Origin: a virus
DNA: 22,207 nucleotides
Virus record (IMG/VR): IMGVR_UViG_3300021598_001532
Location: 1 to 22,207 of that record
Strand: one strand, 5' to 3'
Shown: piece after piece, positions 4,775 through 18,087 of the stretch
Position numbering within the stretch: position 1 is the first letter of the stretch
Layout of the letters: each line of letters opens with the position of its first letter
The notes under the pieces: model-generated
What the model saw: only the letters and a program-made list of their open reading frames with translations
Told to the model about the DNA's origin: nothing
Databases searched by the model: none
Translations under genes and position numbers: made by a program

Positions 4775-5362
4775 ATGAATGAATATTCAGGAAATTTTGA
4801 CCTAAATTCAATATCATCCCTACCAAGATGGTTTGGTAGAGTTGTGTCCAGTGTTTCGTGGCAGGATAACATTGAAGCATCGCATTTTGATCCAAAAAAT
4901 CAAAAAGGTTGGGGTTATAGATATCGTGTTAGGTACTTTGGCATACACTCGGGAAATACTGAAGAACTCCCTGATGAACAACTACCAATGGCTAATGTTG
5001 TTATGCCAGTAACATCTGGTTCTGGATTGGGTGGGTCATTTGATACGCCTGCAATACTTGCCGGAACTATTGTGACTGGATTCTTCCTTGATGGTATCGC
5101 TGGTCAAGAACCTTATATTGATGGTATCTTGATAAATTCAAATAACACTGTACCAAAGAAGCAACCACAGGGAAATATTGGTGGGTTGCAACTTTTTAAT
5201 GATACATATAAAGGAACTAACCCACAAACGGCGGCATATGTTCCTGACTCTTTACAAACAATTAAAAAGATTGAAAGACCAAAAGTTGCAAGTAATCAGT
5301 ATAAAATTATCCCCCAAAACACTCTGACCATATCTGAAATAAAAGCAAGAATTACAACATAA
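4775..5362 (+). CDS. 5: gp5-type baseplate hub OB-fold protein, without lysozyme domain
   Basis: A 195-aa protein matching the N-terminal OB-fold domain of T4 gp5. It begins with WFGRVVSSV (T4 has WFVGVVEDR), then YRYRVRYFGIHSG (T4 RVRVRVVGLH), EELPDEQLPMANVVMPVTSG (T4 PTEKLPWMSVIQPITSA), GLGGSFDTPAILAGTIVTGFFLDG, and a final strand, YIDGILINSNN. In T4 this domain sits on the gp27 trimer and is followed in the same chain by lysozyme and a beta-helix spike. Here the chain stops about 60 residues after the OB fold, in a Lys/Pro-rich tail. Lysozyme and spike are absent from the gene; a separate spike candidate lies at 7093. The family call is solid; the gene number is by homology to the T4 domain. 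Confidence 0.82.
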   Translation: MNEYSGNFDLNSISSLPRWFGRVVSSVSWQDNIEASHFDPKNQKGWGYRYRVRYFGIHSGNTEELPDEQLPMANVVMPVTSGSGLGGSFDTPAILAGTIVTGFFLDGIAGQEPYIDGILINSNNTVPKKQPQGNIGGLQLFNDTYKGTNPQTAAYVPDSLQTIKKIERPKVASNQYKIIPQNTLTISEIKARITT

Positions 5363-5367
5363 AAAAA

Positions 5368-7089
5368 ATGACAGTACTTCCCGCAGGAACTCCTCAGACT
5401 AAAGATATTGACCAATCTCCAGTAACTCACAGGCACTCCCAATCATTTGCGGAGATTTCTAAACTTGCTTGGCAACAAGATATAGATCTTAGAACCGTTG
5501 TACATATACAAAGTCCATGTAAAAGTGATAATAGTTCTATGAAAGGAATTCAGAGAACTATTAAAAATATGCAGATAGATTTGGAAAGAATAAAAAGATT
5601 TTCAAATGTTAATTCCGCTGTTGATGCATTAACCAGAGAGGACCAAGAACCTGGAAAGTCTATTAAAAGAATAGTAAATTTTTCTGCAACTGATATTTCT
5701 GGATATGTTATTAATATTCTGGGTGGTGCTCGTGGGTGGGTAATGAATACAATACAAGATAAAGTTAAAGAGAAACTTCCTTATTTTTTCCCTGGAGAAA
5801 TGCCATCCTTTATTGACAAACTAGATAAAGGTTTAAATGGAATTTCTTGTGCTTTTGCTAAAATAATTAGAGGACTTGCAAAGACTATTGGCAATCTTTT
5901 ATTGCAAATGTTGGATAAGTTTATAAATGGACCAATGTGTTTTGTTGAAAATTTCATTGGCAATTTGCTGAAAAAAATTATGAATCCAATTGAGAAGGCA
6001 ATAAAGTCTGCAGTATCACTTCTTAATGTTGCTTTGGGTAAAATTGCAAATCTTGCTGGAAGTTTATTTAACGCATTAGATTTTATCACGGGTATTTTAA
6101 ATTTCTTTAAATGTGACGATGATAAAGCGTGCCCTTCAGTTCAGGAAACAACTTTATCTGGAGCAGGTCAAAATAATCCCCAAGGAGGAGACCCAGTAGG
6201 AAAAAATCCATTCAGCAAATTTCTTTCTCCTTCAGATACTTCTAGAAGTTGTCCAACAAATCCATTACCCTGTGGACCACCAAGAGTGCAATTTTTTGGT
6301 GGTAATGGTATAGGTGCAATGGCAAACGCTATAGTCAGTCCAAATTCAAATTCAATTATTGGATTTGATATTGTTAATCCCGGATTTAGTTACCTCGCGC
6401 CACCATTTGCAAATATTGTTGACGAGTGTGGAAATGGATCTGGTGCATCATTAGTTGTTCAAACTAGACCTTCACCTAAAGGTGGATTGGAGATTAAAAA
6501 TATTGTAGTAGCTGCGCGGGGAGACGGGTACTTGCCTGCTCCAGATGGTTCTTTGGGTGGAAATGGTATCACATGGAAAGAATCCCAAGAGGGGTATGTT
6601 GTTACACCTAATGGCGATTATTTTACTGTTCCTTCTGGAATAGAACCACCAAATTTACCCCCAGATAGTGTATTTTTCCCACCAGAGTCTACTTTGGCAG
6701 TTCCATCAGATGCCACATCGTTAACTTATCCTGTTATTCTCATTATTGATGAAATTTATATTGAAGATTCTGGTTTTGGATATTTGCCAGGAGATACTTT
6801 GGAAGTTGTTCCCAATAATGGAGCAATACTTCAACCAGTGATAAATGAAAGAGAAGAAATAACACAGGTTAATATTATTAATCCTGGTTCTGGATTCACT
6901 GACATACCCGAAATCATAGTAAATTCTAATACTGGATATAACGCAAAACTTATCCCAGTTCTTAGAGCTATCCCTGTAGAGGCAATTGCAAATATTGGGG
7001 ACATTGAACCCACAACAGCAGTTGTTAGTGTAGTTGATTGTGTTGGTAGAGTTCCTCCAACAGAAACTTTTGATATAGTACCGAGATAA
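5368..7089 (+). CDS. Baseplate-region structural protein with amphipathic helices and GSGF/GYLP repeats
   Basis: A 573-aa protein that starts after an A-rich gap of five bases. Residues 1-130 are mixed. Residues 137-247 form a long run of hydrophobic, amphipathic helices (for example IIRGLAKTIGNLLLQMLDKF and SAVSLLNVALGKIANLAGSL) without a clear transmembrane topology. After a Cys/Pro-rich hinge (about 250-310) come at least four beta repeats of a phage-fibre type: NPGFSYLAPPF (about 338), RGDGYLPAP (about 383), DSGFGYLPGD (about 467) and NPGSGFTDIPEI (about 504), each followed by a strand rich in Val and Ile. It lies exactly between the OB-fold gene and the spike-like gene, where T4 gp5 has its lysozyme; no lysozyme signature is seen in it. 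The role is unknown; a virion component is likely. Confidence 0.7.
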   Translation: MTVLPAGTPQTKDIDQSPVTHRHSQSFAEISKLAWQQDIDLRTVVHIQSPCKSDNSSMKGIQRTIKNMQIDLERIKRFSNVNSAVDALTREDQEPGKSIKRIVNFSATDISGYVINILGGARGWVMNTIQDKVKEKLPYFFPGEMPSFIDKLDKGLNGISCAFAKIIRGLAKTIGNLLLQMLDKFINGPMCFVENFIGNLLKKIMNPIEKAIKSAVSLLNVALGKIANLAGSLFNALDFITGILNFFKCDDDKACPSVQETTLSGAGQNNPQGGDPVGKNPFSKFLSPSDTSRSCPTNPLPCGPPRVQFFGGNGIGAMANAIVSPNSNSIIGFDIVNPGFSYLAPPFANIVDECGNGSGASLVVQTRPSPKGGLEIKNIVVAARGDGYLPAPDGSLGGNGITWKESQEGYVVTPNGDYFTVPSGIEPPNLPPDSVFFPPESTLAVPSDATSLTYPVILIIDEIYIEDSGFGYLPGDTLEVVPNNGAILQPVINEREEITQVNIINPGSGFTDIPEIIVNSNTGYNAKLIPVLRAIPVEAIANIGDIEPTTAVVSVVDCVGRVPPTETFDIVPR

Positions 7090-7092
7090 AAC

Positions 7093-7668
7093 ATGGCAAA
7101 ATCTAAAAATTACGAAACAAAAACAACGGGAACAAAAGATGGTCAGATAACTTTTGGCAATATTCATCCTGACCAAGTGAAATCTTCTGTCATGCTTCAA
7201 GGTCAAGAGTCTCTTGAATATATTACGATAGACCAAACCGCCCCAAGAAAAAGGTGGATTACTTCTAGATGCAGGGGAAGATATCAAGTTAAATGTGGAG
7301 ATGATATTCCAAAAGATGAAATTGGAATGTGGTTTAATGCCGATAGAAGTGATATCTTAATCCAAACAAAAGGTAGACTAAGACTTGAAGCTGAAAATAT
7401 TGATATAATTGCCAGAGGTCCGGACCCTACAAAGGGTATAGTCAATATTATTTCAAACGAAAGCGTTAATATTGAAACTAAAAAATTTACTGCTAACGCA
7501 AATGAATCCATCAGTATTTTTACTGATGGTCAGATGCAACAAACCGCAATAAATATTATGCGAATTTATGGTGGTAGCATTCAAAGAATAACTTCTATGA
7601 GTGCAGAGAAAACACCATCATTGCCAATATTAGATAAAATAGTACAATTAACTAAACCGCAAGCATAA
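7093..7668 (+). CDS. Central spike-like beta-helix protein (gp5 C-terminal analogue)
   Basis: A 191-aa protein. The middle (about 78-150) alternates short strands with turns: SDILIQTKGRLRLEAENIDI, GIVNIISNESVNIETKKF, NESISIFTDG. This is the pattern of the triple-stranded beta-helix in gp5/VgrG spikes, in which every second residue faces the core. The N-terminal 60 residues include a compact CRGRYQVKCGDD segment. It follows the stand-alone OB-fold gene in the same operon, so I infer that it supplies the needle part of the hub as a separate subunit. No PAAR-type tip motif is seen. Alternative: another baseplate beta protein. Confidence 0.62.
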   Translation: MAKSKNYETKTTGTKDGQITFGNIHPDQVKSSVMLQGQESLEYITIDQTAPRKRWITSRCRGRYQVKCGDDIPKDEIGMWFNADRSDILIQTKGRLRLEAENIDIIARGPDPTKGIVNIISNESVNIETKKFTANANESISIFTDGQMQQTAINIMRIYGGSIQRITSMSAEKTPSLPILDKIVQLTKPQA

Positions 7669-7670
7669 CT

Positions 7671-8483
7671 ATGTCAAGTTCAAGTGATTTTGAATTAATT
7701 CATGGACAACTCCATGTGACAAATGAAGAATCAAAACCAGAAGCTTTAGGAAGAGGTCCAAAAAGCATTCATGGTTCTGCATATTTTCAAGCGCCAGTTC
7801 ATATCGGAAAAGATAGTGATTTTGGAAGTGTTGAAGCATCTTTAATGATTGGTAGAGAAACTAATCCAGATACACCATCAAATGCAAAAAGATCTGTGCA
7901 TGTAAAAGGTGATGTTAAGATTGAAGGTGATGGGCAAACTAGTAATGCCCTTTACGTCACTGGCACTACTACTGATGTGGTCTATATTGATGGTGACTTA
8001 TATGTGAGTGGAAAAGTAGATTGTGATAATAAAGGAAGACTCGCAGCTAGATTTTCGCAAGCAGATGCTAGACCAAAACCATTTGATATGATTCATCCAT
8101 CATTGGGAAATGGTCATCGTCTTAGATATGCATGTATTGAGGGTCCAGAAGTTGGAGTATATTTTAGGGGTAGAATAACAAATCAAACTGAAATTGAACT
8201 TCCTTGGTATTGGAAAGACTTGGTTCATGTTAATAGCATATCTGTTCAACTTCAACCAATAGGTTCTCATCAAGATATTATTGTGAAAAGATGGGATTCG
8301 GAAAAAATATATCTGCAATCAAAGAGTGCAATACCAATTGATTCTTTCTATCATGTTTATGCAGAGAGAAAGGATGTCAATGCATTGGTTGTTGAATATG
8401 ATGGTAATGAGTGGAGTGATTATCCTGATAAAGATTATAATGATCCCCAATATGCAAATAAGGTAAATACAAAGACTCTGTGA
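7671..8483 (+). CDS. Virion structural protein with strand repeats and a conserved C-terminal domain
   Basis: A 270-aa protein of a type I recognise from cyanomyovirus baseplate and fibre regions. Residues 20-125 contain fibre-like strands (GSAYFQAPVHIGKD, SVHVKGDVKIEGD, VVYIDGDLYVSGKVD). Residues 135-255 carry a conserved globular domain: PKPFDMIHPS, RLRYACIEGPEVGVYFRGR, IELPWYWKDLV, VQLQPIGSHQDI and FYHVYAERKDVNALVVEYDG. The same C-terminal domain appears at the end of other cyanophage fibre-like proteins. The function is not known; surface exposure on the baseplate is inferred. Its last codons overlap the GTG start of the oxygenase gene (GTGA at 8480-8483). Confidence 0.72.
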   Translation: MSSSSDFELIHGQLHVTNEESKPEALGRGPKSIHGSAYFQAPVHIGKDSDFGSVEASLMIGRETNPDTPSNAKRSVHVKGDVKIEGDGQTSNALYVTGTTTDVVYIDGDLYVSGKVDCDNKGRLAARFSQADARPKPFDMIHPSLGNGHRLRYACIEGPEVGVYFRGRITNQTEIELPWYWKDLVHVNSISVQLQPIGSHQDIIVKRWDSEKIYLQSKSAIPIDSFYHVYAERKDVNALVVEYDGNEWSDYPDKDYNDPQYANKVNTKTL

Positions 8484-9046
8484 AAAAATTAATTTATATT
8501 GAAGAAAATTTTTTAGATTCAATAGAGTGTAAGTCTTTTGTGGATTTTGCTATCGAAAATAAAGATAAAGAAGTTCCGTATGGTAGCGAAAGTAGGGGTG
8601 GAGATACTTTTATTACTAATTTGGATTACGGTGGCAATCTGTATCAGGGGGGAATACCAGATTGTACTAACTTGGAAAGTATAAAAAGTCCAATAATTTC
8701 TTCAATTACAAAAATTTGTAAGTCTTTTGATGAAAATATTAAATTAGACTATGCAACGATTGTGAGATGGCCTGAAGGAACTTTTATGAAACCTCATTAT
8801 GACAATTCCTATCAAGATAATCCTGATGTTTTTGCTGTATTAGTATACCTAAACGACTCTTATAAAGGTGGATATACTTGCTTTGAGGAATTTCAAGTGA
8901 AACCACAATTAGGAAAATTGGTTATATTTTCCAACTCACAATATCTTCATCACGTTACAAAAGTTGAGGACAGTGAAAGATTTGTCCTCTCCCTCTGGTA
9001 CAGTGGGTTGACACGGACCCCTGACCGTGCTATGATACATGGGTAA
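8480..9046 (+). CDS. 2-oxoglutarate/Fe(II)-dependent oxygenase (prolyl hydroxylase-like)
   Basis: A 188-aa protein starting at GTG 8480, overlapping the previous stop by four bases and so translationally coupled to it. The iron site is visible: H106-Y-D108 in the strand FMKPHYDNS, and H158 in YLHHVTKV; R167 in ERFVLSLWYS is the expected 2-oxoglutarate anchor nine residues later. The core strands (FAVLVYLNDSYKGGYTCF, GKLVIFSN) match the double-stranded beta-helix of the P4Hc/PKHD family. Such enzymes are common in cyanophages; substrates are unproven, with hydroxylation of virion or host protein or of a nucleobase as options. Coupling to a structural gene favours a virion protein as substrate (inference). 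The last twelve codons contain a sigma70 promoter and may be a non-conserved extension. Confidence 0.87.
   Translation: MKKLIYIEENFLDSIECKSFVDFAIENKDKEVPYGSESRGGDTFITNLDYGGNLYQGGIPDCTNLESIKSPIISSITKICKSFDENIKLDYATIVRWPEGTFMKPHYDNSYQDNPDVFAVLVYLNDSYKGGYTCFEEFQVKPQLGKLVIFSNSQYLHHVTKVEDSERFVLSLWYSGLTRTPDRAMIHG
9008..9036 (+). promoter_or_regulatory. Sigma70-type promoter inside the 3' end of the oxygenase gene
   Basis: TTGACA at 9008-9013 and TATGAT at 9031-9036 are separated by 17 bases: a perfect -35 box, a 5/6 -10 box and ideal spacing. Transcription should start near 9043, just before the 60-aa gene at 9062. The spacer holds a five-base dyad (CACGG 9012-9016 with CCGTG 9025-9029) that could be an operator or chance. 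Confidence 0.75.
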
Positions 9047-9061
9047 TCAACGGACGAACGA

Positions 9062-9244
9062 ATGCAAGACGAGTACCTCTCACGCTGCGTTGTGGACCCC
9101 ATCAAACGAACCGTGTACCTTTACTCCAATGAAGGAGATGAAAAGCAAGTGACCTGTGATACGGTAGAAGAATTTATGAATGTACTAGACTTCGTTCGTG
9201 CTACAGTGGATGAAGAGACTCTCTCATACGCAAATCCACTTTAA
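9062..9244 (+). CDS. Small conserved phage protein, unknown function
   Basis: A 60-aa acidic protein, the first gene after the 9008-9036 promoter. It has a two-strand start (CVVDPIKRTVYLYSNEGDEK), then a helix (CDTVEEFMNVLDFVRATV) and an acidic tail ending in SYANPL. I recall similar short proteins in cyanophage genomes, always hypothetical. No catalytic or DNA-binding motif is visible. Its promoter type suggests expression early in infection. Confidence 0.65.
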   Translation: MQDEYLSRCVVDPIKRTVYLYSNEGDEKQVTCDTVEEFMNVLDFVRATVDEETLSYANPL

Positions 9245-9245
9245 G

Positions 9246-9304
9246 TTTCAAAAAAGGTCGAAAAAAATCTCCCGGTAAAAATTGCCCTTATTACTTTTTT
9301 GAAA
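9246..9304. repeat. Imperfectly understood 11-bp inverted repeat between two small genes
   Basis: TTTCAAAAAAG at 9246-9256 is the exact reverse complement of CTTTTTTGAAA at 9294-9304, with 37 bases between. It fills the gap between the 60-aa and 67-aa genes and ends just before ATG 9308. With its AT-rich stem it is too weak for a classic terminator; it might fold over the start of the next gene. Chance in AT-rich DNA is possible. Confidence 0.4.
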
Positions 9305-9307
9305 AGT

Positions 9308-9511
9308 ATGGTTTATAAAATTTCATACAAAGACCTCAAAGAGGAACCAGTTAAGACAACTCCAGAAAACGTGAAAGAGGCAAATGAGGCACTCTTTGCA
9401 GCAAAGTGGAATCTCCCTAAAGCAGCAAAGCACTGCGGAATGTCACAAAAAGAAATGAAGTTGACATTCTGGGAGTATATCAAGTATAATCCTATTACTT
9501 ACGAGGCGTAA
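9308..9511 (+). CDS. Small protein with helix-turn-helix-like segment
   Basis: A 67-aa protein from ATG 9308; an upstream in-frame TTG at 9299 would add three residues and is less likely. After a basic N-terminus (MVYKISYKDLKEE) come two helices separated by a turn, EALFAAKWNLPKAAKHCGMS and QKEMKLTFWEYIKYN, with the spacing of a homeodomain-like or FIS-type helix-turn-helix (the WNLPKAAKHCGMSQKEM part resembles a W-x-x-x-x-A-A-x-x-x-G-x-S pattern). It could be a small DNA-binding regulator, but no target is known. A consensus promoter lies within its last 17 codons. I recall this protein as conserved in cyanomyoviruses. Confidence 0.7.
   Translation: MVYKISYKDLKEEPVKTTPENVKEANEALFAAKWNLPKAAKHCGMSQKEMKLTFWEYIKYNPITYEA
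9461..9490 (+). promoter_or_regulatory. Consensus sigma70 promoter inside the 67-aa gene, upstream of tRNA-Leu
   Basis: Both hexamers are perfect: TTGACA at 9461-9466 and TATAAT at 9485-9490, with an 18-base spacer. Start of transcription is expected near 9497, about 24 bases before the tRNA-Leu gene. It should be read by unmodified host RNA polymerase and drive the tRNAs and following small genes early in infection. Confidence 0.75.
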
Positions 9512-9520
9512 GTTTTTTAT

Positions 9521-9593
9521 GGGCGTGTAGTCCAGCGGCAGAGACAGGGCGCTTAAAACGCCTCCAGGGTCGGTTCGAATCCGACCACGCCTA
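9521..9593 (+). tRNA. tRNA-Leu(UAA) with short variable loop
   Basis: A 73-nt cloverleaf without encoded CCA. Acceptor GGGCGTG (9521-9527) pairs with CACGCCT (9586-9592, one G-U), discriminator A9593. D arm GTC/GAC; anticodon stem GGGCG/CGCCT with loop CTTAAAA, giving anticodon TAA at 9554-9556; T arm GTCGG-TTCGAAT-CCGAC. TTA codons are abundant in the AT-rich late genes here. Odd point: the variable region is only five bases (CCAGG), whereas leucine tRNAs normally have a long variable arm. Confidence 0.9.
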
Positions 9594-9604
9594 TGAGGTT
9601 CTTC

Positions 9605-9613
9605 CTCTAAATA
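9605..9613 (+). promoter_or_regulatory. Possible T4-type late promoter (CTCTAAATA)
   Basis: CTAAATA at 9607-9613 resembles the late promoter motif of T4-like cyanophages. It lies 21 bases before the 89-aa gene start, with a GAAAGGA ribosome-binding site at 9621-9627. It could give that gene a second, late expression phase. The motif is short and may be chance. Confidence 0.35.
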
Positions 9614-9634
9614 AACAAAAGAAAGGACTATTCT

Positions 9635-9904
9635 ATGAAATACAGAATAGATGCCAGATACGTTTGGTATAATCGCGGAACACAAATTGTTCTGCTGTAT
9701 TTCATAAATCAAATTCCCTTTACTTTTGACGATTTGCCAGACGAATCAATATTCGATTTGGAATTAATCGAATTAGCAGATAACGAAAGAAGATTTGAAC
9801 CAGAAGACCTTTATCAGGCATCATACTACTTAATGCTTGAAGAATGTCATCCTCTCTTATATGAGTTGGAACTGGAAAATCCAGAAATGTTGCCTGTTGA
9901 TTAA
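9635..9904 (+). CDS. Small acidic protein between two tRNA genes, unknown function
   Basis: An 89-aa protein with a good GAAAGGA ribosome-binding site seven bases before its ATG. The N-terminus is basic and aromatic (MKYRIDARYVWYNRGTQIV); the rest is strongly acidic with many Leu, Glu and Asp residues (LELIELADNERRFEPEDLYQ; LLYELELENPEMLPVD), suggesting a small helical protein. I do not recognise a family. It is read between tRNA-Leu and tRNA-Thr and ends one base before the latter, so all three probably share a transcript. Confidence 0.65.
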   Translation: MKYRIDARYVWYNRGTQIVLLYFINQIPFTFDDLPDESIFDLELIELADNERRFEPEDLYQASYYLMLEECHPLLYELELENPEMLPVD

Positions 9905-9905
9905 T

Positions 9906-9977
9906 GCCCTTGTAGCTCAGTGGTAGAGCAACGGTTTTGTAAACCGTTGGTCGCTGGTTCAAATCCGGTCGGGGGCT
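9906..9977 (+). tRNA. tRNA-Thr(UGU)
   Basis: A 72-nt cloverleaf without CCA. Acceptor GCCCTTG (9906-9912) pairs with CGGGGGC (9970-9976, two G-U pairs); D arm GCTC/GAGC; anticodon stem ACGGT/ACCGT with loop TTTGTAA, anticodon TGT at 9938-9940; T arm GCTGG-TTCAAAT-CCGGT with wobble pairs. Discriminator T9977. It would read ACA, common in the fibre genes. A small hairpin (GAGTT 9979-9983 with AACTC 9989-9993) follows it. Confidence 0.92.
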
Positions 9978-9998
9978 TGAGTTCATAAAACTCCAAAA

Positions 9999-10157
9999 AT
10001 GTCACTTATTTCACAAACTGACCGCGAGATGGTCATTGAAGCACTTGAATATTATGTTCAGAAACTTAAGGAAGATAACTGCACTCCTGCCTCTATCAGT
10101 GCATTCCAAACACTCCTTAACTGGGTCCAACTGGAGCACTTCAAACATGAAAGTTAA
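9999..10157 (+). CDS. Very small helical protein, unknown function
   Basis: A 52-aa frame from ATG 9999 to TAA 10155-10157, beginning MSLISQTDREMVIEALEYYV and continuing through QKLKEDNCTPASISAFQTLL to LEHFKHES. It looks like two amphipathic helices linked by a short CTPAS turn. It begins 21 bases after tRNA-Thr and overlaps the next small gene by 11 bases, a layout that favours a real gene. I recall similar short proteins in cyanophages. A longer frame on the same strand from 10036 overlaps it and seems to be its shadow until 10147. Confidence 0.6.
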   Translation: MSLISQTDREMVIEALEYYVQKLKEDNCTPASISAFQTLLNWVQLEHFKHES

Positions 10158-10320
10158 TCTTTGGTATTGTAATGAAATGAAACAGTGGCGTTGGACGCTG
10201 ACTGATGATTCACGACCTATTCTTAAGCAAGAATCTGGCCAGCAACCTCATCTGCGTGATGCAATGAATGATGTTGCAAACACTGTTGAATATATGTTAG
10301 AATGCAAACAAAGTGAGTAA
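10147..10320 (+). CDS. Very small protein, unknown function
   Basis: A 57-aa protein from ATG 10147, starting MKVNLWYCNEMKQWRWTLTD. The frame is open back to an ATG at 10036, but that extension lies on top of the 52-aa gene and has poor protein character, so I chose the inner start. It has Trp-rich strands followed by a C-terminal helix (HLRDAMNDVANTVEYMLECK). The start overlaps the previous gene by 11 bases, suggesting coupling. Function unknown. Confidence 0.6.
   Translation: MKVNLWYCNEMKQWRWTLTDDSRPILKQESGQQPHLRDAMNDVANTVEYMLECKQSE
10274..10303 (+). promoter_or_regulatory. Possible weak sigma70 promoter for the Mom-like gene
   Basis: TTGCAA (10274-10279) and TAGAAT (10298-10303) are 18 bases apart and would start transcription about 20 bases before the Mom-like gene at 10331. 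Boxes match 4/6 and 5/6. Less convincing than the two upstream promoters. Confidence 0.3.
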
Positions 10321-10330
10321 AAATACCTAA

Positions 10331-10972
10331 ATGAAATCTGACTTTTATATAGATAGGGTAGGCAAAGAAGAAATAAAAGAACTTCTTTATACCTATCATT
10401 ATCTAAAAGACGAATCAAAAGATTTCAAAAGTGGATATAATTACTCTCTTTACCGCAAATCATTCACAGATGTCCTTAATATTGGCGGGTCTGTTGGTGT
10501 TTGTATTTTTACTGGTCTCCCAGTTCCAGAAATTGCCGTAGGAGCATTTGGATTAAGTCGTAATGAACAACAAGGAATATTTGAACTCTCAAGACTTTGT
10601 ATTCATCCAGAAGTTCAAAAAGAAGAGTATAATATCACATCCTGGTTTGTAAGTCGTTGTATCAAGAGGTTTAGGAAAGATGCCCGCGTTTCTGCAATTC
10701 TTAGTTATGCTGACTCTAATCACCACGCTGGAACTATATACAGAGCTTGTAATTTTCAATACTACGGTCTAACAGAACCCAAAAAAGATTTTTACTATAC
10801 TGATGGAACAAAACATTCTAGGGGTAGCGTCAAGGGTGCTGATGGTGAGTGGCGTAGTAGGAGTCGTAAACATCGGTATCTTATGGTTTTTGACAAGAAA
10901 CTCAAAGAAAAGTTGACGTGGAAAGAAGAGTCGTGGTATAATAATCAAGACGATACTGAATCGTTACAGTGA
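10331..10972 (+). CDS. Mom-like DNA adenine-modification acyltransferase
   Basis: A 213-aa protein with the layout of phage Mu Mom, a GNAT-fold enzyme that turns adenine into N6-carbamoylmethyl-adenine. Visible blocks: VPEIAVGAFGLSRNEQQGIF (central strands), ELSRLCIHPEVQKEEYNITS followed by WFVSRCIKRF, AILSYADSNHHAGTIYRACN followed by FQYYGLT, and the C-terminal GEWRSRSRKHRYLMVFDKK. The ELSRL...SWFVSR and SYAD...H.GTIYRA pairs are the family's most conserved parts. In Mu the change protects phage DNA from host restriction; the same is inferred here. No methylase or com-like activator gene is visible in the window. The gene closes the small-gene cassette and is followed by a strong terminator. 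Family call from remembered motifs. Confidence 0.8.
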   Translation: MKSDFYIDRVGKEEIKELLYTYHYLKDESKDFKSGYNYSLYRKSFTDVLNIGGSVGVCIFTGLPVPEIAVGAFGLSRNEQQGIFELSRLCIHPEVQKEEYNITSWFVSRCIKRFRKDARVSAILSYADSNHHAGTIYRACNFQYYGLTEPKKDFYYTDGTKHSRGSVKGADGEWRSRSRKHRYLMVFDKKLKEKLTWKEESWYNNQDDTESLQ

Positions 10973-10990
10973 CCCGAAAAGTGTGACTTC

Positions 10991-11013
10991 AAAACCTCCC
11001 TTGTGGAGGTTTT
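10991..11013 (+). terminator. Rho-independent terminator after the Mom-like gene
   Basis: AAAACCTCC (10991-10999) pairs perfectly with GGAGGTTTT (11005-11013) around a five-base loop, CTTGT. The stem has five G-C pairs and ends in Ts, continuing TTTTGTTG. It separates the small-gene cassette from the fibre block. Confidence 0.88.
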
Positions 11014-11020
11014 GTTGTAT

Positions 11021-11028
11021 GATAAATA
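11021..11028 (+). promoter_or_regulatory. T4-type late promoter (GATAAATA) for the large fibre gene
   Basis: GATAAATA at 11021-11028 differs by one base from the T4 late consensus TATAAATA. It lies just past the terminator and 30 bases before the ATG of the large fibre gene, the expected position for a late structural gene. Confidence 0.65.
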
Positions 11029-11058
11029 ATCCATAACGGAACTATAAGTATTAATAAG

Positions 11059-14000
11059 ATGGGTCTTTCACGTCTCGATAATTTTCTGAAATCAGTACGC
11101 GGAACGATTTTATATGTTGATCCAAATAGTATTGACTCTACAGATAGCATTGAAAATCAGGGTAATAGTTTAACTAGACCATTTAAAACTATTCAGAGAG
11201 CATTAATAGAAGCTTCTAGATTTTCTTATCAAGCAGGAATTGATAATGATAGATTTGGAAAAACTACAATTGTTTTGTATCCAGGAGACCATTTAGTAGA
11301 TAACAGACCTGGATGGATACCATACGGAAATAATACATATCTTCTTAGAAATGGAACAACCTCTTCAGATTTTCCTCCCTTAGACTTAAATTCAAATTTT
11401 GACTTATCTTCTTCAGAAAACCAACTCTACAAATTTAATTCTGTTTATGGTGGTGTTATAGTTCCTAGAGGAACTTCAATCGTTGGACTTGATTTAAGAA
11501 AGACAAAAATTCGACCATTATATGTACCTAATCCAGAAAATCCAAACGTAGAATCTTCTGCAATTTTTAGAGTAACTGGTTCTTGTTATTTTTGGCAGTT
11601 TACGTTTCTAGATTCTGACCCAAATTCTTTTGCATATTCCGATTATTCATCAAGTACTTTTGTTCCCAATTTCTCTCATCATAAACTTACTGCATTTGAG
11701 TATGCTGATGGTGTAAATCCTGTAGTTATTGATGATAGTTTTGCCACTTATTATTCTGGTAGAACTGATCTTAAGATGTATTATGAAAAGATTGGTCTTG
11801 CTTATGGACAATCATCTGGGAGAGAAATTCAACCTGATTACCCATCAACATCTCTTGATATTCAACCAAAAGTAGATGAATATAGAATTGTTGGTTCTCG
11901 TGGAGTTGAAGTTGGTATTTCTAGTATTCGTTCTGGAAATGGCTCAGTAACTAGCACAACAATTACTGTCGATCTTCAGCAACCAGTTAGTGGTCTGGAG
12001 GTTGATACTCCAATTAAGATTTCTGGAGTAGATGCTTTAGGATTTAATGGACAATATGTAGTAAGTAAAGTTAATAGTTCTACACAAGTAGAATATAGAG
12101 TTCAGAATGCACCAACAGTTCCCCTTCCCGGCAGTGGTTCTGCAAACCTTAGTATTGTTGTAGATACTGTCACTTCTGCTTCTCCATATATCTTTAACTG
12201 TTCATTGCGTTCTGTATATGGAATGTGTGGACTGCTTGCTGATGGAAGTAAAGCAGATGGATTTAAGAGTATGGTTGTAGCCCAATTTACTGCTGTTGGA
12301 CTGCAAAAAGATCGAAATGCTTTTGTGAAATACAATCCTACATTGGGATTATATCAAGATAGCACAGCATCTGGTAATGAAAATATTACATCAGATATTT
12401 TAGCAAGATATAAACCAGAATATTCAAACTACCATGTAAAGTGTAAAAATGATGCATATCTCCAATTAGTATCTGTATTTTCTATTGGTTATTGTGAGCA
12501 ATTTGTTGCAGAGAGTGGTGGTGATCAATCTGTCAACAACTCGAACTGCACTTTTGGAAGTAGAGGACTTGTTTCTTCTGGATTTAAATCAAATGCGTTT
12601 AAAAAAGATGATATTGGGTACATAACTCATATTATTCCACCAAAAGTAATAGATTCTTCAGAAATAAATGTAGATTATTATTCTATTGATGTACCTAAAA
12701 CTTTAAGTGTTTCAAATTCTGGAAGGTTATACTTATACAATCAAAATAATGAAGCACTACTTCCCGATAGTGTAATTGAAGGATATCGTATAGGTGCAAA
12801 ATCTGGAGAAACTTTAAACCTCACTTTAACCAGAAGTGGAGTTTCTACAGAATATTCTGCAAAAGTGGTAATGCCACTCACAACATCTACTTCTTTGGAA
12901 AAGATTTTTTATGTTGGAAGGAATTCAGTTGGAGTTAATAGTATAACTTCAAATATAATTACTTTTACTGCGCCTCACACCTTTGCAAATGGAGAAACAA
13001 TAAGAATCGTATCGAATGATGGACATCTTCCCGATGGAGTAGACCATAATCAAATATATTATGCTATTACTACCGGAATTTCATCCAATACCATTAAAAT
13101 AGCTAAATCATTAAATGATGCAATTGGGCTAAATGAAATAGATATTAACAATCGTGGTGGAATACTAAAAGTTGTTAGTAGAGTATCTGACAAGAATAGT
13201 GGAGATTTGGGACATCCAATACAATGGGATTCCTCAAATAATCAATGGTATGTAAATGTATCATCTGCTTCTAGCGAAAATACATTGTATTCGAGAATTG
13301 TTGGTCTGGGAACAACTTCTTTGGGCCAAGCAACACCAAAGACATACATCAAGAGAATTCCTGATAATAGAAATCCATTAGATACAATTTATAGAGTTAG
13401 GTATGTAATTCCTGCAGATTCGCCATTTGTAGCAAGTCCACCTCTTAATGGATATGTAATTCAAGAGTCTAATAGTTCTATAGAACCAACTTCATTGGAA
13501 GTTGGATACCAATTTAATCCTTCCGGTACTACTTTAACAAATTCTACACAACTAAGAAATCAAAGACTCATTGCGGGTGCTACATGGGAATCTGGTGTAG
13601 CTAAAGTCGTTACAGAATTACCTCATGGTTTGGAAATAGGTTCTAAAGTTGAAATATTAAATGTAAAGAGTACTAATAATGAATCTGGAATTGCAAATAC
13701 TTCATTTAATGGCACTTTTGTTGTTTCCGGTATTAGTAGTGCAAGAGAATTTTATATACCCGTTAAAAATAATCCAGGTACTTTTACTAATAATACTTCA
13801 CTGAGAGATACGACTTCACCATACTTTAAGAAAAAAGAATTTTCAAATACTTACTTAGTATATCAAAGTGAAGAAATTCAAAGATATGTTCAAGGTGAGA
13901 GGGATGGAATTTATTACTTATCTGTAGTAAATGCCTCAAATTCCCCAACAACTTCTCCTTTTACATCTGAAAAATACTTACAACCAATTAAAAATCTCTA

Positions 14001-16920
14001 TCCACAAACAAATAGAGATAATCCAGCATCTGATCCAAAATCAGCAAAATCATTTGCACTGTCTTCTCCTATAGGACAAGTTGTTATTAATGAACCACAA
14101 AATAGTATTACTAAAGAAACTTTAGAGAAAAAGTTATTAGATTTGCATGTTGGTGTTGGAGTTACTGATGTGATTTCTAATTCAGTGGGAACTTCTCATA
14201 CTTTCTATACTAAGATAGATCATGGATTTAATCAATTAACTGGAGTAACCATAGTAAATGGTGGAAATGGATATGGTACTGGTAGTGGTAGTGTTGAGTA
14301 TTTTTATAACTGCAGATTAGTTGGTTATGGAGAATCAACATCTGGGAAAAATGCAACTGCTAGAGTTGCTGTTAGTGCTGCGGGTACTATTTTTGATATA
14401 AAAATTATGGATGGTGGTAGTGCATATGGAATTGGCAACACCATGACAGTTGTTGGCATTGCTACAACGACTTCCTTTGTCCCCGCATCAATTGTATCGA
14501 GTAACATTAATTCTAATATTGGCGATACTTTAAGTTTTGTTGGAATTAATGTTGATGAATACGAATCATACAATAATCTTTACAGAATTGTAGGAATATC
14601 TACTGGTGAACATAAAAAAATACAGGTTTCATCTGCTTCAACTATTCAAAATCCTTCTGTAACTGGTCTTGGAGTAACAATTACTTTGGGTTGTGGTTTA
14701 GTTTTAACCGGACAAAGTTTGAATATATTATCAATTTCTTATAATAGATTTACTGGATTAGCTACAGTTACTACACAACAACCTCATGGATTATTTAGAA
14801 ATAGTTCTATTACTTTTGGTGGCGCTCAACAATCTTTCTACAATGGAAATTTTGTAGTTAATAATGTTGTTGGTCTTTCTACGTTTATTGTTAATTTTGG
14901 CATTAGCACGACAACTCCATCAACATCTGGCACTATATTTGGTTATATAAACGGTTTTTCTGCTGGTGGTGGAAATGTTACTAGGTCAAATGAAAATCTT
15001 TTTGGAAGACTAGTATCTCCATATGCAGGTATTACTACTACACTATCTGCTGCAATTACTGATTTAAATGCTAATACAATAAGTATTTCAAATGTCACTA
15101 ATCTAAGTTTAAATGTTGGAGATTATCTTCAAATAGATGAAGAGATTGTTAGAATTAGGAGCACAGTAACTGGAAATCCTGTTTCAGTTTTTAGGGGATT
15201 ACTTGGAAGTAGTAAGTCAACACATGTAAATGGTGCTGTTGTAAAAAGAATTAATCCAAGACCTATAGAATTCCGTAGAAACTCTTTAATTAGAGCGTCT
15301 GCACATACCTTTGAATACGTTGGATATGGCCCTGGCAATTATTCAACATCATTGCCAGATAAGCAGCAAAGAATCTTAACCGAACAGGAAGAAGTTTTAT
15401 CACAATCGGTTAAGAAAAATGGTGGTATGGTTGTATTCTCCGGAATGAATGCCGATGGTAGTTTCTATACCGGAAATAAAAAAATAAATGCAACCACAGG
15501 ACAAGAAGAGTTTGTTGAAACCCCAATACAAACGACAGTTGGAGAAGATTTTACCTCCGGTCCAAATGTAGGGTTTAATGTAATATCACCTATTGATGTA
15601 AATGTTAAGAATTCTATTCGAGTCGATGGTGGGCCAGAAAATAAAGTTATTTCTAAATTTGATGGTCCTGTCATTTTTAATAACAAAATTGTTTCTTCTT
15701 CAGAGAAAGGTATTGAATCTAATTCTTTACTATTGAAAGGAGACCAAAATATATCTAGAAAGTATACTGTAGGTATTTCAACGCCAACAGTTGCCGGAAA
15801 TCCTGGAGATGTTACATATAATGCAATTCCGGCAACAAATGATTATATTGGATGGGTATACACCTCGAATAATAGATGGGAAAATTTTGGATATATTGGA
15901 AACTTTGGCGTTGGGGTATCTTCATCAGGTTCTTATGTTGGTTTTTCCACCCTAATTAACTTTAGATCGGGTCTTGGTGCCACGATAACTTCATCATATG
16001 ACACTGTTAGTGGAATTACAACTTTAACATTTAGTTCAAATCCTCTTCGTGTTGGTGTTTCTACTGGATTGGGTTCCAACAGAACTTTTGTTGGAGTTGC
16101 TACGGAAATTAACTTTGTTGGATATGGTGTTACTATATCTGCAGTTCAAAATTCTGGAATAGCGAGTATTACATTTGATGCGACAGGTGGCGGAACTGGA
16201 TATCCCGGACTTCCTTTGAATTCTCTTCAATATAATGATGGTGGATTCTTTAGAGGTTCTTCCGCATTATCTTTTAATGGTACAAATCTTTTTGTAGGAA
16301 ATGCTCTAGGAATCAATTCTTCATCACCTTCAACAAGATTGGATATTGTTTCTACATCGGGTGGTTCTGTACGCATTAGATCGACAAGTACTTCTGGAAA
16401 TATTGTCAGAATTGACAGCAGAAATCCGGATGATACAACAACTCCTCTTGTAGTGGATTTTAATGGTAATGTTGGAATTAATACCCCAACTCCATTGGGA
16501 GCTTTAGATGTTACTGGAAACTTAGTTGTTGCTGGTGAAATTAGAATATATGAATCTGATAGGAGTAATTATATTGGAGTAAATGCGCCAACTTTAAATT
16601 CTAACTACACTTGGACCCTTCCAACTACAGTTGGTACTGCTGGAAGTATTTTATCGACAAATGGTTCTGGTACTTTAATTTGGTCTTCAGCCTCTTCTGT
16701 TGTTAGTGGCGTATTGACAAGTACTGACTTCTTAAATGAAGGGTCAACAAATCTTTATTTCAGTGAAGAGAGAGTTCAGGATGCTATTGGTGCCGCAATT
16801 AATTCTGGAATTCAGACAGGAATTAGCGTTACTTATGATGATGCAAACAATAGAATCAATTTTGACAATAGTTTCTCACTATATCCATATACCACTCGCG
16901 GATTTAGTATTCCTATTTGA
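11059..16920 (+). CDS. Giant tail-fibre-like structural protein (1953 aa)
   Basis: A modular fibre protein. Residues 17-60 hold a beta-helix entry motif seen in pectate-lyase-like phage fibres (GTILYVDPNS ... RPFKTIQRALIEASRF). The body has repeated PHGL-type units in which a G-x-x-V-x-I strand is followed by FNG-x-[YF]-V-V: about 310-340 (GFNGQYVV), 853-890 (LPHGLEIGSKVEI, SFNGTFVV), 1240-1275 (QPHGLFRN, FYNGNFVV). A segment at about 1409-1452 (RASAHTFEYVGYGPGNY, LPDKQQRILTEQEEVLSQS) is one I know from many cyanophage fibres. The C-terminal 350 residues contain GINSSSPSTRLDI and GINTPTPLGALDV units and a YFSEERVQDAI motif, then end abruptly in RGFSIPI. No S74 chaperone domain is visible. Start ATG 11059 follows a late promoter; the ribosome-binding site is weak. 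Role: virion fibre for host contact, by family resemblance. Confidence 0.85.
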   Translation: MGLSRLDNFLKSVRGTILYVDPNSIDSTDSIENQGNSLTRPFKTIQRALIEASRFSYQAGIDNDRFGKTTIVLYPGDHLVDNRPGWIPYGNNTYLLRNGTTSSDFPPLDLNSNFDLSSSENQLYKFNSVYGGVIVPRGTSIVGLDLRKTKIRPLYVPNPENPNVESSAIFRVTGSCYFWQFTFLDSDPNSFAYSDYSSSTFVPNFSHHKLTAFEYADGVNPVVIDDSFATYYSGRTDLKMYYEKIGLAYGQSSGREIQPDYPSTSLDIQPKVDEYRIVGSRGVEVGISSIRSGNGSVTSTTITVDLQQPVSGLEVDTPIKISGVDALGFNGQYVVSKVNSSTQVEYRVQNAPTVPLPGSGSANLSIVVDTVTSASPYIFNCSLRSVYGMCGLLADGSKADGFKSMVVAQFTAVGLQKDRNAFVKYNPTLGLYQDSTASGNENITSDILARYKPEYSNYHVKCKNDAYLQLVSVFSIGYCEQFVAESGGDQSVNNSNCTFGSRGLVSSGFKSNAFKKDDIGYITHIIPPKVIDSSEINVDYYSIDVPKTLSVSNSGRLYLYNQNNEALLPDSVIEGYRIGAKSGETLNLTLTRSGVSTEYSAKVVMPLTTSTSLEKIFYVGRNSVGVNSITSNIITFTAPHTFANGETIRIVSNDGHLPDGVDHNQIYYAITTGISSNTIKIAKSLNDAIGLNEIDINNRGGILKVVSRVSDKNSGDLGHPIQWDSSNNQWYVNVSSASSENTLYSRIVGLGTTSLGQATPKTYIKRIPDNRNPLDTIYRVRYVIPADSPFVASPPLNGYVIQESNSSIEPTSLEVGYQFNPSGTTLTNSTQLRNQRLIAGATWESGVAKVVTELPHGLEIGSKVEILNVKSTNNESGIANTSFNGTFVVSGISSAREFYIPVKNNPGTFTNNTSLRDTTSPYFKKKEFSNTYLVYQSEEIQRYVQGERDGIYYLSVVNASNSPTTSPFTSEKYLQPIKNLYPQTNRDNPASDPKSAKSFALSSPIGQVVINEPQNSITKETLEKKLLDLHVGVGVTDVISNSVGTSHTFYTKIDHGFNQLTGVTIVNGGNGYGTGSGSVEYFYNCRLVGYGESTSGKNATARVAVSAAGTIFDIKIMDGGSAYGIGNTMTVVGIATTTSFVPASIVSSNINSNIGDTLSFVGINVDEYESYNNLYRIVGISTGEHKKIQVSSASTIQNPSVTGLGVTITLGCGLVLTGQSLNILSISYNRFTGLATVTTQQPHGLFRNSSITFGGAQQSFYNGNFVVNNVVGLSTFIVNFGISTTTPSTSGTIFGYINGFSAGGGNVTRSNENLFGRLVSPYAGITTTLSAAITDLNANTISISNVTNLSLNVGDYLQIDEEIVRIRSTVTGNPVSVFRGLLGSSKSTHVNGAVVKRINPRPIEFRRNSLIRASAHTFEYVGYGPGNYSTSLPDKQQRILTEQEEVLSQSVKKNGGMVVFSGMNADGSFYTGNKKINATTGQEEFVETPIQTTVGEDFTSGPNVGFNVISPIDVNVKNSIRVDGGPENKVISKFDGPVIFNNKIVSSSEKGIESNSLLLKGDQNISRKYTVGISTPTVAGNPGDVTYNAIPATNDYIGWVYTSNNRWENFGYIGNFGVGVSSSGSYVGFSTLINFRSGLGATITSSYDTVSGITTLTFSSNPLRVGVSTGLGSNRTFVGVATEINFVGYGVTISAVQNSGIASITFDATGGGTGYPGLPLNSLQYNDGGFFRGSSALSFNGTNLFVGNALGINSSSPSTRLDIVSTSGGSVRIRSTSTSGNIVRIDSRNPDDTTTPLVVDFNGNVGINTPTPLGALDVTGNLVVAGEIRIYESDRSNYIGVNAPTLNSNYTWTLPTTVGTAGSILSTNGSGTLIWSSASSVVSGVLTSTDFLNEGSTNLYFSEERVQDAIGAAINSGIQTGISVTYDDANNRINFDNSFSLYPYTTRGFSIPI

Positions 16921-16929
16921 TTGCCCCAA

Positions 16930-17259
16930 TTAACCAAGTTCTGGTATTACTACGATATTATACGAAGTAATACCAGTTGCTGAAAATGTTTGCGTTGGTG
17001 CTAACATTATTTCTGTTGGAAGAGCTGCTGCAGTACCGGTTAAATCTAGAGTTAGTGAGTTGTTTGAAGATGTTGAAGATGCGCTGGTATAAGCTAGATT
17101 TCTACCTATCGCAGATAAACCTGTGCTACTTACAGAAACTCCAGCCCAACTGATAGAAATATCAGTACCACCCATGTAATTTATTATTACCCTTACATTT
17201 TGCCCGGTGTTATTTGTATATCCAACATCAGTTGAACCACTTAATACTTGAGAAGCCAT
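16930..17259 (-). CDS. Small adhesin-like phage protein on the opposite strand
   Basis: A 109-aa protein encoded against all its neighbours. It begins MASQVLSGSTDVGYTNNTGQ and is rich in Ser, Thr, Gly and short beta strands (VRVIINYMGGTDISISWAGV, IMLAPTQTFSATGI), ending YNIVVIPELG. It looks like a compact beta-sandwich adhesin or fibre-tip protein; I recall relatives near tail fibres of cyanomyoviruses. It ends nine bases from the stop of the giant fibre and starts in the divergent late-promoter region, with a CTAAATA motif on its own strand. No clear Shine-Dalgarno sequence. A role as fibre tip or attachment co-factor (like T4 gp38) is inference only. Confidence 0.7.
   Translation of the reverse strand: MASQVLSGSTDVGYTNNTGQNVRVIINYMGGTDISISWAGVSVSSTGLSAIGRNLAYTSASSTSSNNSLTLDLTGTAAALPTEIMLAPTQTFSATGITSYNIVVIPELG
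16941..16976. repeat. Perfect 11-bp inverted repeat at a convergent gene junction
   Basis: CTGGTATTACT (16941-16951) is the exact reverse complement of AGTAATACCAG (16966-16976), 14 bases apart. It encodes part of the C-terminus of the minus-strand gene and lies 21 bases past the stop of the giant fibre. It may act as a bidirectional terminator stem or RNA-end stabiliser; there is no T-run on either side. Confidence 0.65.
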
Positions 17260-17284
17260 ATTGTTTCAAAAATACTTTTTTTAT

Positions 17285-17291
17285 TATTTAG
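17285..17291 (-). promoter_or_regulatory. Late promoter for the minus-strand gene
   Basis: Read on the minus strand, CTAAATA occupies 17291-17285, continuing as CTAAATAATA, 25 bases before the ATG at 17259-17257. It forms a back-to-back pair with the plus-strand TATAAATA, whose 5' end is only five bases away. Confidence 0.5.
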
Positions 17292-17295
17292 TTTT

Positions 17296-17303
17296 TATAA
17301 ATA
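17296..17303 (+). promoter_or_regulatory. T4 consensus late promoter (TATAAATA)
   Basis: TATAAATA at 17296-17303 matches the T4 late consensus exactly and lies 31 bases before the TTG start of the second fibre gene, in an intergenic region. Confidence 0.75.
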
Positions 17304-17318
17304 ACTAAAAAGAAAAGC

Positions 17319-17326
17319 AAGGGGAG
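17319..17326 (+). promoter_or_regulatory. Strong ribosome-binding site deciding a TTG start
   Basis: AAGGGGAG lies eight bases before TTG 17335. The GTG at 17328 is too close and in a frame that stops after 17 codons. The TTG gives MGINKNFVVKHGLEV, the typical N-terminus of cyanophage fibres, so TTG is the real start. Confidence 0.75.
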
Positions 17327-17334
17327 AGTGAACC

Positions 17335-18087
17335 TTGGGTATAAACAAAAACTTTGTAGTAAAACATGGTTTAGAGGTTAACTCAAATCTCATTGTTGCT
17401 GATGCAGATACTGGTAGAGTTGGTCTGGGAACCACAAATCCCGCAGCAGATTTAGAGTTATATTTTCCACCCAAAGCTAAATTATCTGTTAGAAGCACTG
17501 AGGGAGAATCCTTTTTAGATATTGATTCTGGAATTACTTCAACTTCTTATTTGAATTTTAAGCAAAATGGAGTTTTGAAGGGAAATATTTCTTTCAATTC
17601 TCATACTTTAGATGTTTTAGAAATAAATTCTTCAACAGATAAAGACGTTGTTCTCGCAACCGGTGGTGGTAAAGTTGGTATAGCAACAACAAATCCATCT
17701 TCAGAATTGACAGTTTCTGGAGATGTTTTTGTTTCCAACAATATTACTGTAAATGGCATTTCAACTTTGTCCGGAATTACTACTATTTCGGAAACATTAT
17801 TTTCAAATCAATTAAGTATTTCTGGATTTTCTACATTTAATGATAATGTTAACTTAATCCAAGATTTATATGTAGGTGGGAATACAACATTAAGTGGAAT
17901 TAGTACATTTGTTGGATTTTCTACATTTAATGATAATCTATATGTTGCAGGAGTCTCTACATTCTCTAATACTATTGATGCAAACAATGGAGCAACAATT
18001 GATAATGTAAGAATAGGTGTTGCGGATGATAATGAAATTGATACCTCTTCAGGAAACCTAACACTCTTCAGGAAACCTAACACTTAA
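17335..18087 (+). CDS. N-terminal half of a frameshifted tail-fibre protein
   Basis: A 250-aa frame from TTG 17335, supported by a strong AAGGGGAG site and the family-typical start MGINKNFVVKHGLEV. It contains two GLGTTNP/GIATTNP fibre units (GRVGLGTTNPAADLELYF at about 23-40; GKVGIATTNPSSELTVSGDV at about 112-131) and a set of STF-rich strand repeats (about 142-205: GISTLSGITTI, GFSTFNDNVNL, GISTFVGFSTFNDNLYV). These resemble the triple-beta shaft of T4-like fibres. The natural frame ends at about residue 243 (SSGNLTL); the final seven residues (FRKPNT after L) come from the second copy of a 19-bp tandem duplication, which shifts the frame into a TAA at 18085-18087. The product should be a shaft without receptor-binding end. 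Confidence 0.75.
   Translation: MGINKNFVVKHGLEVNSNLIVADADTGRVGLGTTNPAADLELYFPPKAKLSVRSTEGESFLDIDSGITSTSYLNFKQNGVLKGNISFNSHTLDVLEINSSTDKDVVLATGGGKVGIATTNPSSELTVSGDVFVSNNITVNGISTLSGITTISETLFSNQLSISGFSTFNDNVNLIQDLYVGGNTTLSGISTFVGFSTFNDNLYVAGVSTFSNTIDANNGATIDNVRIGVADDNEIDTSSGNLTLFRKPNT
17823..17937 (+). repeat. 25-bp direct repeats spaced 90 bp apart in the fibre shaft
   Basis: The same 25 bases occur at 17823-17847 and 17913-17937, exactly 90 bases (30 codons) apart, coding for GFSTFNDN both times. Recombination between them would remove or add one 30-residue shaft unit in frame. Confidence 0.75.
18045..18084 (+). repeat. 19-bp tandem duplication causing a frameshift
   Basis: The unit CTCTTCAGGAAACCTAACA stands at 18045-18063 and again, identical, at 18064-18082, with two further matching bases. 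Because 19 is not a multiple of three, the second copy shifts the reading frame by one and brings a TAA at 18085-18087. Perfect identity points to a recent event. Confidence 0.95.

Follow-up and report, generated by a model that had tools for sequence, protein, structure and literature searches.

A gene lying directly upstream of the tail fibre gene in virus record IMGVR_UViG_3300021598_001532 raises the question whether T4-type cyanophages mark their own DNA with a Mom enzyme and, if so, how its synthesis would be controlled. Mom of phage Mu adds a carbamoylmethyl group to adenine in viral DNA, which keeps bacterial defences from cutting it. According to the original prediction, the gene is a Mom-like modification gene of a T4-like phage, its product shares ELSRL, SYAD and GTIYRA blocks with Mu Mom, and its control must differ from that found in Mu. 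These claims were followed up on positions 1 to 22,207 of the record, a stretch of 22,207 nucleotides termed here the window, and on related loci from phage and IMG/VR collections. The features discussed are gathered in Table 1.

Table 1. Position of features in and around the mom-like gene of the window.
Feature	Position	Strand	Basis
Sigma-70 promoter, host-type, TTGACA-18-TATAAT, 12/12	9461..9490	+	consensus match
tRNA-Leu (taa)	9520..9594	+	
tRNA-Thr (tgt)	9906..9977	+	
Short ORF directly 5' of mom, 57 amino acids with its ATG, Bellamy gp26 homologue	10147..10320	+	
mom-like gene, putative N6-adenine DNA-modifying transferase	10331..10972	+	ORF; Pfam, PHROG, AF2 model
Codons T103-S104-W105, with S104 corresponding to Mu Mom S124	10637..10645	+	alignments, PDB title
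Second sigma-70-type promoter, TTGACG-18-TATAAT, 11/12, inside mom 3' end	10913..10942	+	consensus match
Candidate small RNA, ~65 nt, promoter to hairpin; 5' part also codes last Mom residues	10949..11016	+	
10-pair hairpin, terminator-like, between mom and fibre gene	10990..11014	+	fold -16.6 kcal/mol, z -4.29
T4-type late promoter GATAAATA of tail fibre gene	11021..11028	+	
Tail fibre gene, 1953 amino acids	11059..16920	+	ORF; 70% identity to Bellamy gp27, first 399 residues

Family membership, fold and active site

The mom reading frame spans exactly positions 10331-10972 of the plus strand, from ATG to TGA, and is intact, coding for 213 amino acids. An HMM search against Mom, proposed as a check together with the original prediction, gave 73.1 bits with Pfam PF25680 Mom (cut-off 27.1, E 3.1e-20, residues 4-200), and phrog_1384 'Mom-like DNA modification protein' matched the protein with E 4.6e-31. 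All three predicted blocks are found, as FELSRLCIH (84-92), LSYADSN (124-130) and HAGTIYRACNF (132-142), and align with MELNRMWLH, QSFADER and RAGVVYQASNF of Mu Mom (NP_050657; PDB 8bv8), to which the window protein is 23% identical. A sequence search of the PDB with the window protein alone retrieved 8bv8, 'Methylcarbamoylase mom', at E 0.005. With a profile built from 79 rows, the window protein plus 78 relatives, the same entry reached 2.6e-15 and the next chain 0.25.

The fold was modelled with AlphaFold2 from alignment A3, which has 79 rows of less than 88% identity and leaves out fusions to MazG and GIY-YIG. The model has a mean pLDDT of 88.6 and a pTM of 0.84, residues 205-213 being the sole stretch below 50. 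Foldseek placed two 8bv8 chains on top (6e-11 and 6e-10), well ahead of generic GNATs (from 4e-6), and VIA gave 8bv8 a Z of 17.9 (rmsd 2.9, 172 residues), the next entry having 13.4. The product could also be an ordinary GNAT acetyltransferase, RimI- or Nat-like, whose target is a host protein or a small molecule, as the model resembles many GNAT acetyltransferases at Z of 12-13 and rimI, the sole NCBIfam match, has an E of 0.029. However, the 14.5 bits of rimI lie far under its cut-off of 86.4, sequence profile and fold both rank Mu Mom first with a clear gap, and the Mom-specific residues are invariant, which makes such an activity improbable. No other GNAT family thus matches better than Mom.

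The residues H23, Y24, G56, E85, L86, R88, S104, S125, D128, G134, Y137, A139, N141, G146 and H162 are invariant in 16 proteins that include Mu Mom. Across the 79 rows H23, Y24, E85, L86, R88, S125, D128, G134, Y137, A139, N141 and H162 are kept without exception, position 104 has Ser in 76 rows and Thr in three, and G56 and G146 are found in 71 and 74 rows, respectively. In the 241-residue numbering of Mu Mom, the residue aligned with S104 is S124; the PDB title of 8bv8 reads 'inactive mutant S124A', and the mutated Ala faces the S104 column in the profile match. Work on Mu Mom reportedly implicates H48, Y49, R101, S114, D139 and Y149, in a numbering that is lower by ten, and these positions are all identical in the window protein. 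For residues other than S124 a role in the active site is suggested by such work and by their conservation.

The dN/dS ratio between the window gene and its relatives is 0.10-0.20 in nine of 12 pairs, dS being not computable in the other three; purifying selection acts on the window gene. Like Mu Mom, the window protein has a GNAT fold, stands alone and is of similar length, and the two share the H-Y, E-L-x-R, S, S-[YF]-A-D, G-x-x-Y-x-A-x-N and H residues. HMM searches, the fold and the conservation of the active site all support membership of the Mom family, and the window gene is an additional member of this already known family. The Mom-like proteins of Listeria phage A511 and Bacillus phage Riggi (PHROG 1384) belong to it as well and have all invariant columns in common with the window protein, but identity is ~28-30% and their hosts and genomic places are different.

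Genomic slot and control of mom

The assignment to a T4-like phage also stands. The window carries tail and baseplate genes with PHROG matches, and its fibre protein is 70% identical to that of Synechococcus phage Bellamy across the first 399 residues and matches 460 phage records with names that start with Synechococcus, Cyanophage, Prochlorococcus or Marine. The window phage is a Kyanoviridae-like T4-type cyanophage. A 2OG-Fe(II) oxygenase gene at positions 8480-9046 precedes the tRNA cluster and lies amid the genes for tail and baseplate.

The mom-less phages Bellamy, S-SM2 and SynMITS9220M01 have the same order of tRNA-Leu, short ORF, tRNA-Thr, short ORF and fibre gene, while S-B43 and P-TIM68 have short ORFs and no annotated tRNAs in this place and S-SCSM1 has two tRNAs directly 5' of the fibre gene. 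Since cultured relatives have this order without mom, mom occupies a cargo slot (slot a) 5' of the tail fibre gene. One IMG/VR contig (L005) is 100% identical to window positions 5024-18064 except for two exact gaps, at about 9990-10094 and 10896-11115, with no evident repeats at the junctions. The second gap removes the 3' end of mom together with the 5' end of the fibre gene, and this contig is thus an assembly error or a defective copy.

Mu mom is under Com and Dam/OxyR control, Com being a small zinc-finger activator of translation whose gene overlaps the start of mom and the Dam/OxyR control acting through upstream GATC sites. The literature on Mu also describes dependence of mom transcription on C (PMC4461284). 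The earlier reading that Com and methylation control are not visible was borne out, as the window has no com gene and no GATC between positions 8443 and 11118, around mom. The short ORF of 57 amino acids upstream of mom has no zinc-finger or Com match in Pfam and was rejected as a Com counterpart because its homologues are kept in mom-less phages; Dam control was rejected because no GATC lies near mom. The whole window has 24 GATC sites versus 72 expected from base frequencies, a depletion that is mild under a higher-order model (O/E 0.80 in loci with mom and 0.87 in loci without). Mu is a transposing temperate phage with a com-mom operon, whereas the window gene lies in a tRNA and short-ORF cluster of a T4-type cyanophage, and Mu-type control is absent from it.

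A different control is suggested by the promoter that precedes this cluster. Among 66 sources, redundant loci included, 43 have a sigma-70 match of at least 10/12 ahead of tRNA-Leu, mostly at a similar distance, and the remaining 23, among them all five cultured phages scanned, lack one. The scanned stretch has eight sigma-70 matches versus 6.2 expected, a number not above chance, and it is therefore the recurrence upstream of tRNA-Leu that carries the argument. From this recurrence, the promoter at 9461-9490 likely starts a transcript covering tRNA-Leu, tRNA-Thr, the short ORF and mom. In cyanophages, promoters of the host type are a mark of early genes. If mom is transcribed along with the tRNA cluster, its expression would be earlier than in Mu. 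The position in a putative tRNA operon, the host-type promoter and the absence of Com and of nearby GATC agree with the prediction that control must differ from that of Mu. In the 42 sources scanned, the late gene downstream has a signal of its own, an NHTAAATA motif that precedes the fibre start by 36-63 nt.

The 3' end of mom carries a second promoter match, and such a match (at least 10/12) is present in 44 of 62 distinct mom ORFs from the first IMG/VR scan versus four of 45 distinct ORFs from the second genomic slot described below (slot b). Upstream of the fibre gene, a promoter, a segment mostly of 50-76 nt and a late promoter follow each other in 90 of 152 loci, giving 56 distinct segments, of which two are tRNAs and two are short and lack a hairpin, these four not being the same element. 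The promoter background is eight of 169 windows of 260 nt in the window, compared to 18 of 42 selected fibre loci. The hairpin that ends the candidate small RNA is absent from a consensus terminator scan, and its T run lies partly within the stem. Rfam has no family for this candidate, and alifold consensus structures of two sequence groups are weak except for the terminator stem. The carboxyl terminus of the window protein is variable and modelled with low confidence because its codons double as promoter and candidate RNA sequence.

Distribution and fusions of the Mom branch

The window protein has matches in 113 phage records, none reaching 60% identity, in a search that, like that of IMG/VR, was made in a collection that may omit records very close to the window. 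The closest sequenced isolate among the matches listed is Roseobacter phage CRP-212 (gp15 region), at 55% identity; it differs in having Mom fused in frame to MazG and in being another type of phage. Cyanophages among the best 60 of the 113 matches are only Synechococcus phage S-SSM7 (two records) and S-SSM6a, at 28%, and one more Synechococcus record is found among the remaining 53. The S-SSM7 protein is likewise coded by a Kyanoviridae gene directly 3' of a tRNA cluster, but its identity to the window protein is 25-28%, its gene is near psbA rather than the tail fibre gene, and with its close relatives it forms a separate branch (96% SH-aLRT split).

A first IMG/VR scan with the window protein as query confirmed 200 of 212 candidate stretches, of which 80 were kept; a second, with a 16-row alignment, gave at least 600 candidates, 433 of those listed being confirmed and 80 kept. 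When 80 loci were instead fetched by the fibre protein, redundant contigs included, 12 had mom within 2.5 kb upstream, 58 did not, and the other 10 had less than ~1.2 kb of upstream sequence. Among 15 contigs tagged as mom-less, mom lies slightly further upstream in one (G015) and is absent from the other 14, contigs being fragments. Slot b is found in 49 of the 80 loci kept from the second scan, a subset of at least 433 confirmed. Its gene order, named from locus L166 only, is gp33, gp59, an unknown ORF, gp32, mom and the convergent genes gp53, gp48, gp2 and gp4; mom and the gp32 ORF of L166 share four overlapping bases. A few loci (L108, L122 and L159) are in neither typical order. A mobile mom in scattered places had been expected, but these two fixed positions hold most loci. 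Loci of slots a and b are intermingled in the tree, a quick one made with no bootstrap, in which slot b requires at least three label changes on starred branches, and moves between slots are therefore likely, but few.

Of 14 large contigs bearing mom, 13 have one Mom match and one (G005) has two. PF00124 (psbA/psbD type) is present in ten of them, including slot-b contigs G009 and G010, and these contigs are therefore from cyanophages. A Dam-type methylase match occurs in one of the 14 (G010:C1:97562-97900). Uncultured cyanophages commonly carry the Mom branch of the window, which was not found in their cultured counterparts.

Fusions of the Mom domain were also seen. In CRP-212 it is joined in frame to a MazG pyrophosphohydrolase (L082:8001-8924), the annotation of gp15 having a later start and a name taken from the MazG part, and the same fusion is present in ten of 47 IMG/VR loci from the scan (L324-L333). 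A protein of 557 amino acids (L317:1501-3171) combines an amino-terminal Mom domain with a GIY-YIG nuclease domain. The literature on jumbo phages reports Mom proteins that are often fused to nucleases (PMC7824862). Among the titles and abstract openings that were searched, no paper dealing with Mom of cyanophages or with a fusion of Mom to MazG stood out, and within these searches no description was found of the abundant cyanophage Mom branch, of the two slots it occupies or of the fusion with MazG.

Such nuclease fusions bear on whether the window gene could be a cargo remnant of a Mom-endonuclease homing element, devoid of a role in modification. The PHROG profiles of homing and HNH endonucleases match through their carboxyl-terminal part, many viral Foldseek matches are named endonuclease-like, and the protein of L317 shows that a Mom-GIY-YIG protein exists; judging from the fusions, the endonuclease profiles probably match via a Mom-like part. 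Yet the window protein has no nuclease domain, its gene is under purifying selection, and mom is kept in the same slots across many phages. A homing remnant is accordingly highly improbable.

Proposed function and restriction avoidance

The reading favoured by sequence and model, with a probability of about 0.7, is that the window gene makes a working Mom enzyme that would mark adenines in the phage's own DNA against restriction. The GNAT-fold transferase would add a bulky group to the N6 of adenine, and the marked DNA would withstand cutting by host restriction enzymes whose site contains adenine. That the modified base is adenine, that the group is as in Mu and that the effect is anti-restriction are proposed by analogy with the Mu protein. 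mom would be transcribed with the tRNA-Leu, tRNA-Thr and short-ORF cluster from the promoter at 9461-9490, before the late genes, unlike the tightly held late mom of Mu.

Sequence composition around the fibre gene was compared between 29 loci with mom (the window and 28 hand-picked loci from the first scan) and 14 loci without. O/E values with and without mom are, respectively, 0.40 and 0.54 for CATG, 0.63 and 0.80 for ACGT, and 0.80 and 0.87 for GATC, TGCA being the exception (0.85 and 0.74). The eight SAS-containing 6-mers have 0.72 versus 0.77 (p 0.65), and all 6-mer palindromes 0.86 versus 0.80 (p 0.006, relatedness ignored), a difference carried by those without SAS. There is in general no relaxed avoidance of A-containing palindromes in the 29 loci with mom relative to the 14 without, a comparison that the host mix may confound. 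The composition pattern differs from the prediction of adenine protection and gives it no support; another mix of hosts could cause it. The GC-only palindromes CCGG, CGCG and GCGC are avoided more strongly where mom is missing, with O/E of 0.47, 0.31 and 0.50 in the loci without mom (L375-L388, with small counts) versus 0.76, 0.85 and 0.78 in those with mom.

These data touch on a Mom-fold enzyme with changed chemistry, which would still modify DNA, with another acyl group or at another base. In its favour, adenine sites do not stand out in the composition test, the window protein and Mu Mom share just 23% identity, and relatives that fuse Mom to MazG and GIY-YIG indicate that the family diversified. 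Against this, the active-site residues in common with Mu Mom are invariant or nearly so, and a change of chemistry appears rather unlikely.

Adenine marking by a working Mom enzyme can be extended, tentatively and with more doubt than confidence, to a large uncultured clade of T4-like cyanophages with adenine-hypermodified genomes. Mom would be made from an early tRNA operon with a host-type promoter or, in sister phages, be translated together with gp32, such that DNA is marked during replication; cultured Kyanoviridae would lack the branch since the hosts used for their isolation do not need it.

If adenine marking is confirmed, many wild cyanophages carry an adenine hypermodification that, as far as searched, is unreported for their cultured relatives. 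Cyanophages shape marine and freshwater primary production, and such a modification would imply adenine-targeting restriction in their natural hosts. Enzyme-based library preparation could then be biased, and a Mom system free of the tight control of Mu would become open to study.
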